This document shows positions 29,036 to 46,565 of a stretch of 59,809 nt of DNA, one piece after another. Made by a program: the position numbers and the translations under genes. This DNA comes from an uncultured Clostridia bacterium (GTDB taxonomy: Bacteria; Bacillota; Clostridia; Christensenellales; Borkfalkiaceae). Numbering within the stretch: the stretch's first letter is position 1; every line of letters starts with the position of its first letter. The notes beneath the pieces were generated by a model that was given only the letters and a program-made list of their open reading frames with translations, made no database searches and was not told the origin of the DNA. The stretch spans positions 1 through 59,809 of the forward strand of contig CALWCH010000008.1 in assembly GCA_944376335.1 (NCBI GenBank). The letters are read 5' to 3'.

Positions 29036-29044
29036 GGTACCACT

Positions 29045-29118
29045 CTACGGCGACTGACGAATTGGCGGAGCACCGCGTGAAACCGTAGGGGGCACGAAAG
29101 CCGTTTCGTCTGGGCAGC
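29045..29118 (+). promoter_or_regulatory. ZTP (pfl-motif) riboswitch aptamer
   Basis: P1 is CTACGG/CCGTAG (29045-29050 with 29083-29088). Inside it is the class-typical GACTGACGAA (29052-29061) and a P2 hairpin GCGG-AGCA-CCGC (29065-29076). The 3' domain carries CGTCTGGGCA (29107-29116). GACG (29056-29059) can form the pseudoknot with CGTC (29107-29110); the more usual pair in this class is GGCG/CGCC, so pairing is kept despite base change. ZTP riboswitches sense the purine/folate stress nucleotide ZTP/ZMP and were first named for their link to pfl genes, which is what follows here. The segment after P2 (GTGAAACCG) departs from the consensus I remember. Confidence 0.75.
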
Positions 29119-29154
29119 ACTCTTTGGGTAGGGTACTGCCCTTTCCTGTTCTTT
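29112..29154 (+). terminator. Riboswitch-controlled terminator (expression platform)
   Basis: GGGCAG (29112-29117) pairs with CTGCCC (29136-29141), followed by TTTCCTGTTCTTT. The left arm is the conserved GGGCA of the aptamer, so ligand-bound aptamer and terminator exclude each other; ligand should turn the operon on. Confidence 0.75.
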
Positions 29155-30243: not shown

Positions 30244-32304
30244 ATGACGGCAAAAGAATGGACTGAAAACAACTTCGAGGGGGCATGGCGCTCCTTCGAG
30301 CCCGGCAAGTGGAGCCAAGACGAAGTGGACGTGCGCGACTTCATTCAGCGCAACTATACCCCCTACGAGGGCGACGGAAGTTTCCTCGCCCCCGCCACCG
30401 AGGCGACCAAGAAGCTTTGGGACATCGTGATGGACTACAGTAAGAAGGAGCGCGAGCGCGGCGGCGTGTACGATGCGGATACGTCCATCGTCTCCACCGT
30501 TGCAAGCCACAAGGCGGGGTATTTCGACAAGTCTCTCGAAAAGATCGTGGGGCTCCAGACGGACGCGCCCTTCAAACGCGCTCTGCAGCCCTTCGGCGGC
30601 ATCCGCATGGCGGAGGAAGCCCTCGAGATGTACGGCTACCACATCGACCCGCAGATAAAATATATCTTCACGCACTACAGAAAGACGCACAACGACGGCG
30701 TGTACGACGCCTACACCCCCGAAATGCGCCGTGCGCGCTCCGCGCACATCTTAACGGGACTGCCCGACACCTACGGCCGCGGCCGCATCGTGGGCGATTA
30801 TCGCCGCGTCGCCCTCTACGGCGTCGATTACCTCATTCAAAAGCGCGAGGAAGATAAGCTCCTCATCGACGGCGACATGACCTCCGACCGCATCCGCGAC
30901 AGAGAGGAAGTCTCCGAGCAAATTAAAGCGTTGAAGGCGCTCAAGGCGATGGCATCGGAGTACGGCTTCGACATCTCCCGCCCCGCAGAGAGCGCGCAGG
31001 AGGCCATCCAATGGCTGTACTTCGGCTATCTCGCCGCCGTCAAGGATCAGAACGGCGCGGCGATGAGCATCGGCAGAAACTCCACCTTCCTCGATATCTA
31101 TATCGAGCGCGACCTTCAGGAGGGCAAACTCACCGAAACCGAGGCGCAGGAGCTTATTGACCACTTCGTCATGAAGCTGCGCGTCGTCAAGTTCATGCGC
31201 ATCAAAGAGTATAACGAGCTCTTCAGCGGCGACCCGACTTGGGTCACCGAGAGCATCGGCGGCATGGGCGTGGACGGCAGGACGCTCGTCACCAAAAACA
31301 GCTTCCGCATCCTGCACACGCTCAAAAACCTCGGCCCCGCGCCCGAGCCCAACCTCACCGTCCTCTGGTCCAAGCGCCTGCCCGCGGGCTTCAAGCGCTT
31401 CTGCGCCGAGGTCTCCATCGAGACGAGCGCCATCCAGTACGAGAGCGACGATCTGATGCGCCCCGAGATGGGCGACGACTACTGCATCGCCTGCTGCGTC
31501 TCGAGCATGCGCGTCGGCAAGGACATGCAGTTCTTCGGCGCGCGCGCAAATCTTGCAAAGTGCCTCTTATACGCCATCAACGGCGGCAAAGACGAGCTCA
31601 TGAAGGACAAAAAGACGGGTCTTCCCATGCAGGTCTCCCCCGAATACGCGCCCATCCTCGGCGACGGCCCCCTCGACTTCAAGGAAGTCATGCGCAAGTA
31701 CGAACAGATGATGAGCTGGCTCGCCCGCCTCTATGTCAACACGCTCAACCTCATCCACTATATGCACGATAAGTACTGCTACGAGGCGCTCGAAATGGCA
31801 CTCCACGACGTCTCCGTCCGCCGCTTCTTCGCCACGGGCATCGCAGGGCTTTCGTGCGCGGCGGACAGCTTATCCGCCATCAAATACGCCAAGGTCTACC
31901 CCATCCGCAACGAAGAGGGCATCGTCACCGATTTCCGCATCGAGGGCGACTACCCCAAGTACGGCAACAACGACGATCGGGCCGACGAGCTCGCCGTCTG
32001 GATCGTCAAGACGTTCATGAACAAAATAAAGTCCGTTCCCACCTACCGCGAGTCCGTGCCCACGATGTCCATCCTCACCATCACGTCCAACGTCGTCTAT
32101 GGCAAAAAGACGGGCAACACGCCGGACGGCAGAAGGGCGGGCGAACCCCTCGCCCCGGGCGCCAACCCCATGCACGGGAGAGACAGTAACGGCGCGCTCG
32201 CCTCGCTTGAGTCGGTCGCCAAACTTCCCTATGACTACGCCCGAGACGGCATCTCCAACACCTTCTCGGTGACCCGCCGTTCGCTCGGCAAAGACGAAGA
32301 CTAA
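30244..32304 (+). CDS. pflB: Pyruvate formate-lyase catalytic subunit lacking the glycyl-radical domain
   Basis: 686 residues against about 760 for the normal enzyme. The thiol catalytic pair is present at Cys417-Cys418 (YCIACCVSS), and [24 protein letters not shown] and the tail [17 protein letters not shown] match PFL. The chain stops exactly where the C-terminal glycyl-radical domain should begin (after the LGKDDE position), with TAA in frame. The missing domain is encoded 19 bases on as its own gene with its own AAGGAG. The complex should turn pyruvate and CoA into acetyl-CoA and formate under anaerobic conditions. Confidence 0.93.
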
Positions 32305-32322: not shown

Positions 32323-32559
32323 ATGAGTAAGCAACAGACGGAAAACCTTGTCAATATGCTGGATGCGTACGTCGCAGACGGCGGCTATCATCTCAACGTC
32401 AACGTGTTCGACCGCGAGACGCTCCTCGACGCGCAGAAGCACCCCGAAAAGTACCCCCAGCTCACCGTCCGCGTGAGCGGGTATGCGGTCAACTTCATCA
32501 AGCTCACCAAGGAGCAGCAGGACGACGTCATCGCAAGGACGATTCATGAAAAAATGTGA
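32323..32559 (+). CDS. Separate glycyl-radical domain of pyruvate formate-lyase (GrcA-like)
   Basis: 78 residues. It aligns with the last part of full-length [36 protein letters not shown] and the ending of the form [12 protein letters not shown]. The radical-bearing glycine is Gly53 in RVSGYAV. ATG is preceded by AAGGAG eight bases upstream, and the intergenic gap carries two stops, so this is not a sequencing frameshift. It resembles the E. coli stress protein GrcA (YfiD), but here the main enzyme has no glycine of its own, so this protein should be essential for activity. Confidence 0.92.
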
Positions 32560-32575
32560 CAAAATTCACGAATAG

Positions 32576-32895
32576 GTTCACGCAAATCTTTTTGCAAAGG
32601 CAAAAATCTTTGCCGTGATGTTTAGGGAAAACGCCGCCGCGCAGCGCTTTGCTATGCGGCGGCTCGTTTTCCCTTTTTGCGCGAGTTTTAGGGGCTTACG
32701 ATTTAGCTCGCGCAAATTCACCCTTTCCCCCGAAAGCGCAAGTATGCGCAAATTGGGGCCTGCTGCGCAAAAGCGCGGTTTTGCTTGCAGAGTTTATTTA
32801 TGATGCCGCTCCGCAAAAGTGTGATTTTGCTCGCGGCAGTCATTTGGGGAAGCTGCGCAGGGTAACCCTGCTCGCGGCAGTAAATTTTAATTCAC
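32576..32895 (+). repeat. Structured intergenic element, copy E1
   Basis: This starts 17 bases after the glycyl-radical gene, in its orientation. In order: GTTCAC; hairpin HP0 (32582-32613) closed by GTGA; HP1 (32624-32674), which also works as a terminator; HP2 (32676-32685 with 32707-32716) with loop TTTTAGGGGCTTACGATTTA; a junction (about 32719-32758) with small hairpin GCGCA-AGTA-TGCGC; then three tandem double-stem units (32760-32790, 32804-32838, 32853-32880) with inner stems GCAAAA/TTTTGC or GCAGGG/CCCTGC. The same order occurs at 43352-43668, and part of it on the minus strand at 44395-44609, with different but still paired stems. No gene lies in this 390-base gap. Confidence 0.7.
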
Positions 32896-32912
32896 GCAAA
32901 TCTTAAAGAAGG

Positions 32913-32944
32913 GCGCCGCCCGCGCAGTAATGCGCGGGCGGCGC
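32913..32944 (-). terminator. Terminator of the XRE regulator operon
   Basis: A perfect 14-bp GCGCCGCCCGCGCA stem with GTAA loop; on the minus strand TTCTTTAAG follows. It lies just after the stop at 32951. Confidence 0.75.
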
Positions 32945-32950
32945 TCCATA

Positions 32951-33190
32951 TTATATTATAATTTTCACCACTGTTCCGTCCGCGCTCTCAATATCCACAA
33001 GCGTCAGCCGGCCGTTTTGCTGCTTATACTGTTTGAGCGCGCGCCTCACTTCCCGCCCGTGCGCCTTCAAAAAAGCGGCGAACTCCGCGTCCTTGCTGCC
33101 GAGCGCCCTGCGGGCGATCAAAAGGCACAGCCCGAGGGGCAGGTGCAGCGAAAGCTTCACGCCCTCCCCGCGTATCTTGACGGCTGCCAT
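32951..33190 (-). CDS. Small protein similar to the C-terminal domain of the upstream XRE regulator
   Basis: 79 residues from the ATG that overlaps the regulator stop (TGATG). The pattern VKLSLHLPLGLCLLI then VDIESADGTVVKIII repeats that of the regulator (VNINLPFALMEVFL and VDITSADGDIVEIVV), so it looks like a free copy of the regulator sensory domain. It may pair with the regulator to tune it; that is inference. I cannot name the domain family. Confidence 0.65.
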   Translation of the reverse strand: MAAVKIRGEGVKLSLHLPLGLCLLIARRALGSKDAEFAAFLKAHGREVRRALKQYKQQNGRLTLVDIESADGTVVKIII

Positions 33191-33678
33191 CACTCCACCA
33201 CAATTTCAACGATGTCGCCGTCCGCCGAGGTGATGTCGACGAGTTTCCCCACAACGCCCGCCTTCACAAGCTCCAAGAGCTTTGCAAAGTCAATGTTCTT
33301 TAAAACTTCGCCCTTTTCGCCGTCCACGGTAAAGGGGAGCTTGCCGTCCTTTAAAAAGACTTCCATGAGCGCAAACGGCAAATTGATGTTCACCTTATCC
33401 CCCTCGTGCGAGAGGACGCGCATCCTCAGCGTCAGTTTGTTGATATCCACGAGTTTGGTGTCCACGGCGATCGGCTTTTTCTCGACGCCCAAGAGCTCGT
33501 CAACGGAGACGCCGAAGATCTCCGCAAGGCGGGGCAGCAGCGAGATGTCGGGCGCGGTGAGCCCATTCTCCCACTTGCTCACCGCCTGCGCGCTCACCGA
33601 GCACAGCTCGGCAAGCCCCTCCTGCGTCAGCCCCTTCTGCTTCCGAAAGTATGCAATGCGTTCAGCTAAAGTGTTCAT
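33190..33678 (-). CDS. XRE-family transcriptional regulator
   Basis: 162 residues. Residues 5-62 are a Cro/C1-type helix-turn-helix (RIAYFRKQKGLTQEGLAEL, QAVSKWENG, PDISLLPRLAEIFGVSVDELL). The C-terminal half (about 75-162) has a beta-rich domain with LRMRVLSHEGDKVNINLP and VDITSADGDIVEIVVE. AAGGAGAG lies before ATG. It forms an operon with the small protein downstream. Three CAAC-N-GTTG palindromes at 33765-33816, upstream of its promoter region, are likely operators for self-regulation. Confidence 0.85.
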   Translation of the reverse strand: MNTLAERIAYFRKQKGLTQEGLAELCSVSAQAVSKWENGLTAPDISLLPRLAEIFGVSVDELLGVEKKPIAVDTKLVDINKLTLRMRVLSHEGDKVNINLPFALMEVFLKDGKLPFTVDGEKGEVLKNIDFAKLLELVKAGVVGKLVDITSADGDIVEIVVE

Positions 33679-43351: not shown

Positions 43352-43668
43352 GTTCACACATTTTTCCGCGAACTGACGCGGAAAAATGTCGTGAGTGGAG
43401 AAAAACCCAATGCACGCTTCGCTGACATTCGGTTTTTCTCGATGGCGCGCGGATGGCAACAATCAGAATGCGCGCCATCTCACTTTTCCGCAGAAGCCCT
43501 AAGCATAGGGCAAATTGAGTCCTTCAGCGGAGGGGAACCCTCCTCGAAGCATGATTTTAGAACGGCGGGAGGGCAACCCTCCTTGCAGAATTATTTTAGG
43601 AAGCAGTTGTTTGTTTGGCGAATCACTGCGCAAAAGCGTGGTTTTGCTTGCAGAGTTCATTTAGGGAA
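43352..43668 (+). repeat. Structured intergenic element, copy E2
   Basis: It begins one base after the permease stop, in the permease orientation. Parts in order: GTTCAC; HP0 (43358-43370 with 43377-43389) closed by GTGA; HP1 GAGAAAAACC/GGTTTTTCTC (43398-43440); HP2 GATGGCGCGC/GCGCGCCATC (43441-43479); a junction with small hairpin GCCCTA-AGCA-TAGGGC (43496-43511) then CAAATTGAG; then double-stem units at about 43522-43549, 43565-43588 and 43625-43655, with inner stems GGAGGG/CCCTCC twice and GCAAAA/TTTTGC once. HP2, junction hairpin and inner stems differ from E1 in sequence but keep pairing. Confidence 0.7.
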
Positions 43669-43733: not shown

Positions 43734-43762
43734 TTGACACTTTTAGAATTTGGTGATAAAAT
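43734..43762 (+). promoter_or_regulatory. Promoter of the putative antitoxin RNA
   Basis: TTGACA at 43734-43739, 17-nt spacer, TAAAAT at 43757-43762; RNA start near 43768. Confidence 0.82.
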
Positions 43763-43767
43763 AAAGG

Positions 43768-43860
43768 AGCAACAGAGGGATACCGTTCAGCGGTTAGCCC
43801 GAGTTCATGTAAAAATAACCGACCTCGAGGTTACCGAATTCTAAGGGCGGTTATTTTTTT
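43768..43860 (+). ncRNA. Putative type I antitoxin RNA
   Basis: About 93 nt from the promoter start to a terminator hairpin (AAATAACCG at 43813-43821 with CGGTTATTT at 43848-43856, then T). The hairpin contains the palindrome ACCTCGAGGT, and its 3' arm overlaps the end of the opposing small ORF. Its 5' end (AGCAACAGAG, then GCGGTTAGCCC) nearly repeats the 5' end of the convergent transcript. No open frame with a ribosome site is present. By layout it is a cis-antisense RNA acting on the 3' end of the small mRNA. Confidence 0.62.
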
Positions 43861-43955
43861 ATAATCAAATAGATTTTGTCCTTTGTTACTCTAAAAGAGA
43901 TGACAATGCCTTCTTCCACCAAAAGCTGAAGAAGGTACAGGATAAACAAATCCAT
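43851..43955 (-). CDS. 34-residue putative type I toxin peptide
   Basis: Too short for ordinary gene calling. ATG at 43955 follows AAGGGGGTGATC, a very strong ribosome site. The peptide starts MDLFILYLLQLLVEEGIVIS and ends in a basic KDKIYLIIKK, so it has a short hydrophobic stretch and a positive tail. It has its own consensus promoter (44038-44066), a leader of about 75 bases and a terminator shared with the convergent RNA. A membrane-active toxin of the TxpA/Bsr kind is inferred from layout, not from a named family match. Confidence 0.65.
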   Translation of the reverse strand: MDLFILYLLQLLVEEGIVISFRVTKDKIYLIIKK

Positions 43956-44037
43956 AAGATCACCCCCTTATAAGGAAATTACTCATAATTTCCCCCAAGG
44001 GGCTAACCGCCTACGGCTTCTCTGTTGCTTAGCTCTT

Positions 44038-44066
44038 ATTATAGCATAAAAAAACGCAATCGTCAA
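44038..44066 (-). promoter_or_regulatory. Promoter of the putative toxin mRNA
   Basis: TTGACG (44066-44061), 17-nt spacer and TATAAT (44043-44038); start near 44031, giving RNA beginning GCTAAGCAACAGAG. Confidence 0.82.
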
Positions 44067-44100: not shown

Positions 44101-44185
44101 CAATACACCGCCGCGCAGTTGCGCGGCGGTGCTTTCCTCAAATCACGACATTTTTCCGCGTCAGTTCGCGGAAAAATGTGTGAAC
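44101..44185 (-). repeat. Structured intergenic element, copy E4 (5' part only)
   Basis: On the minus strand: GTTCAC, HP0 with the same arms as E2/E3 (ACATTTTTCCGCG), GTGATTTGAGG and a 12-bp CACCGCCGCGCA hairpin in the HP1 position. HP2 and the tandem units are missing. It lies just upstream of the toxin promoter. Confidence 0.6.

Positions 44186-44394: not shown

Positions 44395-46565
<2,171 letters not shown>

Follow-up and report, generated by a model that had tools for sequence, protein, structure and literature searches.

A large, labile family of hairpin-rich repeats in a gut-bacterial group

The element E1, at nt 32576–32895 of the window (the whole stretch of 59,809 nt that was analysed), belongs to a large, labile family of hairpin-rich repeats in a gut-bacterial group. 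This description is well supported, and the family is apparently undescribed, as far as literature and database searches reach. On balance, E1 is probably one copy of a set of non-coding, modular, mobile palindromic DNA repeats, a BIME/BOX-like mosaic that is anchored at stop codons in the Gallimonas lineage. The window is contig C8 of genome G000, an assembly of 1.75 Mb in 44 contigs that is 86% complete. The layout first proposed for E1 (GTTCAC-HP0-GTGA, HP1, HP2, a junction hairpin and then tandem units) was borne out on re-reading, the units being three hairpins. Its proposed bounds were right as to the presence of an element, but the repeat extends to about nt 32904, where it takes in part of a further HP0. 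The parts of E1 and its borders are as follows.

32564–32575, plus strand: remnant of an older HP0, ATTCACGAATAG, immediately 5' of E1 and shorter than the HP0 fragment at the other end (from the sequence)
32576–32895, plus strand: E1, a type-A element carrying unit hairpins (its own genome gives 65 BLAST matches; orthologue at the same site of G034)
32578–32618, plus strand: HP0 of E1, palindrome TCACG...CGTGA (HP0 descriptor; helix 1 of the 45-copy alignment)
32624–32674, plus strand: HP1 of E1 (fold; helices 2 and 3 of the same alignment)
32676–32716, plus strand: HP2 of E1, with a conserved asymmetric loop around AGGGGCTT (fold; helix 4)
32736–32749, plus strand: junction hairpin GCGCA-AGTA-TGCGC, followed by AAATTGGGG (sequence; helix 5)
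32760–32880, plus strand: three tandem unit hairpins whose paired arms differ (repeat family D4 for the first two; fold)
32890–32904, plus strand: fragment of another HP0, closing the E1 array on its 3' side (similar fragment in G034)
32911–32946, plus strand: terminator-like hairpin 3' of the array (similar hairpin in G034)

The last of these is likely to be the native terminator-like hairpin of the locus. E1 starts 16 nt 3' of the stop codon of a 78-aa gene (nt 32323–32559, plus strand) and is followed by an 80-aa ORF on the minus strand (nt 32951–33193), which has no Pfam match. A protein-coding role for E1 was rejected, as the ORFs of at least 40 aa that overlie it measure just 41–85 aa and the codon-usage gene caller predicts none of them.

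The genes upstream show a split pyruvate formate-lyase. A 686-aa part (nt 30244–32304) stops inside the glycine-radical domain, at PF01228 positions 2–49, and the 78-aa gene supplies PF01228 positions 51–106 with the RVSGYAV stretch of that domain. The two-gene split is found in all 13 genomes in which the gap could be read; in three of these, repeat elements separate the halves. A ZMP/ZTP riboswitch lies at nt 29040–29122, upstream of a radical-SAM gene and pflB. Prior reports touching on split pyruvate formate-lyase reportedly include GrcA/spare-part work.

The genomes used throughout are incomplete assemblies. In a BLAST search of G000 with E1, 61 of the 65 matches had midpoints outside predicted genes. 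When the search covered 101 genomes (its own and relatives), 44 matched, 43 within the genus and one in another family. A covariance model built from 45 type-A copies was run on 101 genomes of the genus of Candidatus Gallimonas, taken as a sample, and matched 82 of them, with at least 24 scored copies in each of eight genomes. The same model matched 24 of 396 genomes sampled from the order; these belong to the same genus, to three other genera of the family, presumably Borkfalkiaceae, and, with one genome each, to two other families, the weakest being genus g40, matched only at 4.8e-4, and G297 of another family, with a short match at 2.5e-4. Absence from all other genomes, named beforehand as an outcome that would count against E1, did not hold when relatives were searched for E1-type copies, which were found in the genus and in further genera. 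A pattern scan of named genomes returned 18 stretches, each of which came from Candidatus Gallimonas caecicola or from MAGs of uncultured Clostridia, and the same scan of viral contigs returned none. That no named family matches E1, as the original prediction had it, stands in so far as no Rfam 15 family reaches its gathering threshold over the repeats (there are sub-threshold matches only, e.g. Leu_leader over E4 with 29.9 of 50 bits), but the kind of element is known: BIME/REP and BOX are likewise mosaics of palindromic repeats. Among the literature matches listed there was no account of such repeats in Gallimonas.

The order of the modules is constant: HP0, HP1, HP2, junction hairpin and unit hairpins. 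In all, 79 distinct full cores were collected. Three types of middle part were distinguished: A (like E1 and E3), B (like E2) and C (frequent in G034), which have HP0, the junction hairpin and the units in common. A further module, D (the CAGCACGGTGTGCTG hairpin), occurs within arrays, and some arrays close with a terminator-like hairpin, AACGCC...GGCGTTTT. In other genera the order is kept with different letters, and the HP2 loop retains a similar core. These descriptions, like all assignments of types A–D and of filled or empty sites, were made by eye. The predicted recurrence of the E1 order elsewhere in the window was found in every case:

43352–43668, plus strand: E2, a type-B element with units, beginning directly after the TAG of a CitMHS-like gene
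44395–44609, minus strand: E3, a type-A body with a type-B HP0 (sequence comparison in the window)
44101–44185, minus strand: E4, a truncated copy with HP0 and part of HP1 (97% identical to E3 over 66 nt)

Of the loops said to be shared by E1 and E3, the HP2 loop AGGGGCTT is indeed common to both, but E2 is of a different subtype (GATGGCAACAATCAG) and the HP0 of E3 is of the E2 type. At the site of E2, G001 is without an element and G034 has one of another type. The region at nt 43734–44066 may hold a type I toxin-antitoxin pair, with a 34-aa ORF (nt 43851–43955, minus strand) behind a promoter-like site, a convergent promoter-like site on the plus strand and shared GCAACAGAG...GGTTAGCCC stretches (by eye). 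This region has no Pfam or NCBIfam match, and its match to BsrG is weak and sub-threshold (18.6 of 55 bits).

Most copies that are first in their array and have a same-strand gene upstream begin at or close to its stop codon. The HP0 descriptor, which requires TCAC or TCGC and CGTGA/CGCGA and misses other feet, found 130 distinct HP0 in the loci searched. Of these, 87 are first in their array and 70 of the 87 have a same-strand gene upstream, genes having been called by a simple codon-usage script whose start positions are unreliable. In 51 of the 70 the HP0 starts -1 to 6 nt from the stop codon, a count that describes the copies and not the genomes, the loci having been chosen for holding copies. 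Outside the 70 stand the 17 first HP0 whose upstream gene is on the opposite strand or missing, the 43 later HP0 and loci L170–L197. The stop codons at the 51 copies (TAA 25, TGA 17, TAG 9; compared with 21, 18 and 2 in the 41 predicted genes of the window) are of several kinds, so no single codon is the target. Two copies, C6:35780 and C6:16753, lie inside gene ends and provide the last codons. In a later set of 19 copies, five of the 15 from genera g42 and g39 are at a stop codon (L179, L180, L184, L187, L188), as is one of two from distant species of the genus (L196); three copies lie 43, 133 and 253 nt 3' of a gene, and ten have no predicted same-strand upstream gene within the short stretches read. 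The peak at stop codons could be the result of selection rather than targeting.

Placement of this kind also speaks for another explanation, which we regard as rather doubtful: that the repeats are a structured RNA of mRNA 3' ends, acting in stability, ribosome pausing or termination, which has spread because it is useful and in which selection sees the folded RNA. The copies are oriented as the upstream gene in the 51 of 70 cases at a stop codon. The plus strand of E1 has a stable RNA fold (z -5.2, better than all 100 dinucleotide shuffles), and loops are conserved as stems change; the junction loops GTGA and HP0 loops TTCG presumably resemble stable RNA tetraloops. A consensus scan counted six terminator-like sites around E1 against 1.1 in shuffled sequence, and some arrays close with the terminator-like module seen by eye. 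Around E2–E4, however, such sites are not in excess (2, against 2.6 in shuffles), and no Rfam family covers the repeats. Folded as DNA, the minus strand of E1 gives z -6.5, again better than all 100 dinucleotide shuffles.

The pairing itself is strongly maintained. Alignment A1 comprises 45 type-A rows, chosen from the 79 distinct cores and related to one another, and has 40 pairs. In it 98.4% of 1787 cells pair, 28 of the 40 pairs change on both sides, and there are 264 double-changed cells. A shuffle control (500 shuffles) gave means of 82.0% paired cells, 17.7 pairs and 69.9 double-changed cells (sd 6.5), and sliding the pairs by 1–3 columns gave at most 53.3% paired cells and 18–52 double-changed cells. 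Both sides have changed in 12 of the 15 pairs of HP0 (99.4% of its cells paired), in eight of nine pairs of HP2 and in three of five pairs of the junction hairpin. The observation that corresponding stems differ but still pair is in this way confirmed over 45 copies; the covariation it implied is displayed by the 45-copy alignment, but the four copies in the window would alone have been insufficient as proof.

Whether such pairing is held in DNA or in RNA can be judged from the mismatches, as G-U disturbs an RNA fold less than A-C does, while DNA pairing tolerates neither. The non-Watson-Crick cells among the 1787 of A1 are 14 G-T, 16 A-C and 13 others. A wide HP0 set has 4 G-T against 16 A-C, the 27 junction hairpins of the cores have two of each, and a wider junction-hairpin set, which includes some chance matches, has ten of each. 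The HP2 segments run against a DNA-level reading, with 26 G-T against 14 A-C in a count in which the helix was extended into the loop. The tRNAs of the same loci, taken as a control, show 11 G-T and no A-C in 146 pairs, although there are only seven of them and ARAGORN itself favours G-T. Since G-T and A-C are equally rare, the pairing seems to be held in DNA and not as a classical RNA. It is moderately supported that pairing is kept at the DNA level, either by recognition of a folded single strand or by template-switch repair of palindromes. Of the two possibilities originally put forward, a structured RNA or a structure-dependent mobile repeat, the second fits better, because pairing is maintained and copies come and go between species, and RNA as the main cause is unsupported by the mismatches (14 against 16 in A1, 4 against 16 in the wide HP0 set). 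If the DNA-level reading is right, strong covariation alone is no proof of a structured RNA; the two readings can be told apart by setting G-T against A-C mismatches, and this comparison could be extended to other candidate RNA motifs with several copies per genome.

The comings and goings of copies are seen when sites are compared between relatives. The E1 site is filled and orthologous in G034, the nearest relative of G000 (87% over 3.3 kb), and in G001, the next nearest, it holds an element of different make. The gene is also present in eleven more relatives from the genus, and the sequence read downstream of it, up to 620 nt, held no element in any of them. When E1 and 13 further sites of G000 were considered, those that could be aligned (by eye) were filled in 11 of 12 cases in G034, in 3 of 11 in G001 and in none of 17 in G004, G028, G039 and G022 together. 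These four genomes have copies elsewhere (15, at least 24, 21 and 8, respectively). Hot-spots were rejected as the cause of shared occupancy, since filling declines with the distance of the relative; a more likely history is ancestral insertion, with later replacement or with a new element inserted in front. G000 and G034 share 11 filled sites; at seven of them the first element, though it lies at the same point, is of a different type in the two genomes, which simple inheritance of a single insertion leaves unexplained. Both the empty orthologous sites (0 of 17) and the differing types argue against the structured-RNA explanation.

Further traces of insertion were found at single sites. Two sites of G000 (C28:2752 and C21:6644) have an HP0 fragment only. 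Behind the gene at C10:42566, which we take to be tsf (EF-Ts) from its C-terminus and its neighbour, a type-A element of G000 precedes a type-C element, and the type-C element is first in G034. The gap between pflB and the 78-aa gene, in the 13 readable genomes (these include G015, with ambiguous content, and leave out G023), measures 11–33 nt in eight, is filled in three (G028, G004 and G018) and has a remnant in G011; in G018 (L057) it is occupied by two elements in opposite orientation (by eye). The module-D hairpin has 21 matches, of which 16 are uninterrupted and two are something else; the remaining three, all of them in G000, are interrupted by a type-A element. Both junctions are kept in two of the three, with TTG on either side of about 220 nt of inserted sequence, at one target only. 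The TTG flanks may be microhomology, and the interruptions may represent one event that was then copied on. Among the matches listed by a general empty-site search, many were repeat-against-repeat matches and not insertions, and only the module-D and tsf cases were used from it. Remnants of an older HP0 stand in front of newer ones at E1, C3:47840 and C20:20318, indicating repeated events at one place, and in four loci (L101, L103, L099, L082) an element restarts within another. One copy (L022, G000:C18:9018–9216) is flanked by a 27-nt direct repeat consisting of the ribosome-binding site and start of the next gene. Together, the lability of the family, with copies gained or lost between species, is well supported.

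Restarting elements, together with repeated and inverted pairs, are also what passive palindromes could give, in which one arm serves as the template for repair of the other during replication, so that mutation bias keeps the stems complementary, and duplication and recombination spread the copies, with neither recognition nor function. The stems are close to perfect, G-T and A-C cells being few, which is in keeping with this; no mover tested tracks the copies, and template switching at quasipalindromes is reported in E. coli (PMC7202029). Arm repair, however, would not conserve loops and linkers, and these are conserved; the similar HP2 loop core in other genera (by eye) and the anchoring at stop codons are likewise left unexplained, and we hold this explanation to be distinctly improbable.

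None of the enzymes considered clearly tracks the copies. The Y1 transposase (Y1_Tnp, PF01797) occurs in 15 of 61 genus genomes and does not track the copies: among nine copy-rich genomes, all incomplete assemblies, it is absent from six (G034, G004, G001, G005, G474, G250) and present in G000, G018 and G352. In the four Y1 loci that were read there was no match to E1–E3. The REP foot GTAG occurs near the 5' foot in 3 of 130 HP0 (2.3%, against a background of 1.6%), and CTAC at the 3' side in none of the 130. A Y1 transposase or RAYT was rejected as mover on these grounds. The idea of a REP/RAYT or IS200/IS605-type system, in which such an enzyme moves the repeats, draws on the hairpins, the intergenic mosaic arrays and a nearness to stop codons resembling that of part of the E. 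coli REPs (passages of PMC12306157); given the enzyme's absence from copy-rich genomes, the foot that is not enriched and the unmatched Y1 loci, it is already disfavoured and very unlikely indeed. Two other candidates were set aside: a group II intron or retroelement derivative (reverse transcriptase, RVT_1, in 10 of 61 genus genomes, and not in G000, G034, G028 or G018), and an IS110 or bridge-RNA element (IS110 recombinase above the cut-off in three of 61 genomes, G055, G015 and G034). Several copy-rich genomes lack these enzymes. Tyrosine recombinases are present at 1–8 per genome in all 16 genomes checked, and their numbers, with all subfamilies taken together, do not differ clearly between the nine copy-rich and the seven copy-free ones.

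For the mobile DNA repeat favoured here, the following course is proposed. The hairpins would be read as single-stranded DNA, at a replication fork or in a transcription bubble, by some factor for which the conserved loops and the TTCAC/GTGA foot serve as recognition marks. The whole cassette from HP0 to a unit (about 220 nt) would then be copied to another place, immediately downstream of the end of a gene. Since no transposase family tested tracks the copies, movement would be due to an unrecognised recombinase or to host replication with template switching. The inserted hairpins would begin the 3' end of the mRNA and might there slow down ribosomes or shield the transcript, in the way reported for E. 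coli REPs near stop codons. A more far-reaching proposal, which is speculative and in our view unlikely, is that the repeats make up a mobile DNA class that is new: single-stranded cassettes of several hairpins, recognised by their loops, delivered specifically behind translation stops by a mover outside the known transposase types, and serving as exchangeable 3' ends of host genes. If the favoured reading is right, the family offers a large natural data set on how bacterial interspersed palindromes move when no known transposase tracks them, and on why they settle behind stop codons. The arrays also matter for assembly: contigs C34 and C23 of G034 end in a gene flank just before such a site.

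Of the known systems, the REP/BIME/REPIN repeats of enterobacteria and pseudomonads are likewise intergenic palindromes in mosaic arrays. The arms of REPIN hairpins show compensatory changes (passages of PMC3116915), and part of the E. coli REPs lie 1–20 nt from the end of an ORF, those near stop codons being reported to stall ribosomes (both from passages of PMC12306157). Unlike them, the unit here is a multi-hairpin cassette of about 220 nt in constant order, and the GTAG foot and Y1 gene of the RAYT-borne repeats are, respectively, not enriched and not in step with the copies. Bacterial MITEs (ERIC/IRU, Correia/NEMIS, RUP and the Rickettsia palindromic elements) are small folded repeats that may also be fused to genes, as described in passages of PMC2229807, and the copies C6:35780 and C6:16753 form gene ends in the same manner. 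MITEs have one stem joining their ends, whereas the present repeats have several separate hairpins; inverted repeats of at least 20 nt are absent between the ends of E1, and its ends are unpaired in both RNA and DNA folds. The target site duplication of MITEs has a possible counterpart here only in the TTG flanks of one target, in module D. The BOX elements of Streptococcus pneumoniae (boxA-boxB(n)-boxC) are modular, vary in the number of inner units, are inserted into other repeats and have predicted folded transcripts (passages of PMC3049150). Compared by layout only, they resemble the present family in modularity, variable inner units and nesting; anchoring at stop codons is not among the features given in the passages of PMC3049150, and the repeats described here span several genera. 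The present repeats are not filed as REP, as an IS110 derivative or under an Rfam family, because the defining features that were tested for these were lacking, nor are they assigned to the MITEs, whose terminal and target repeats have no clear counterpart in them; by analogy, the way they work is that of the BIME/REP and BOX kinds, being mosaic, intergenic, palindromic, nested and close to stop codons.
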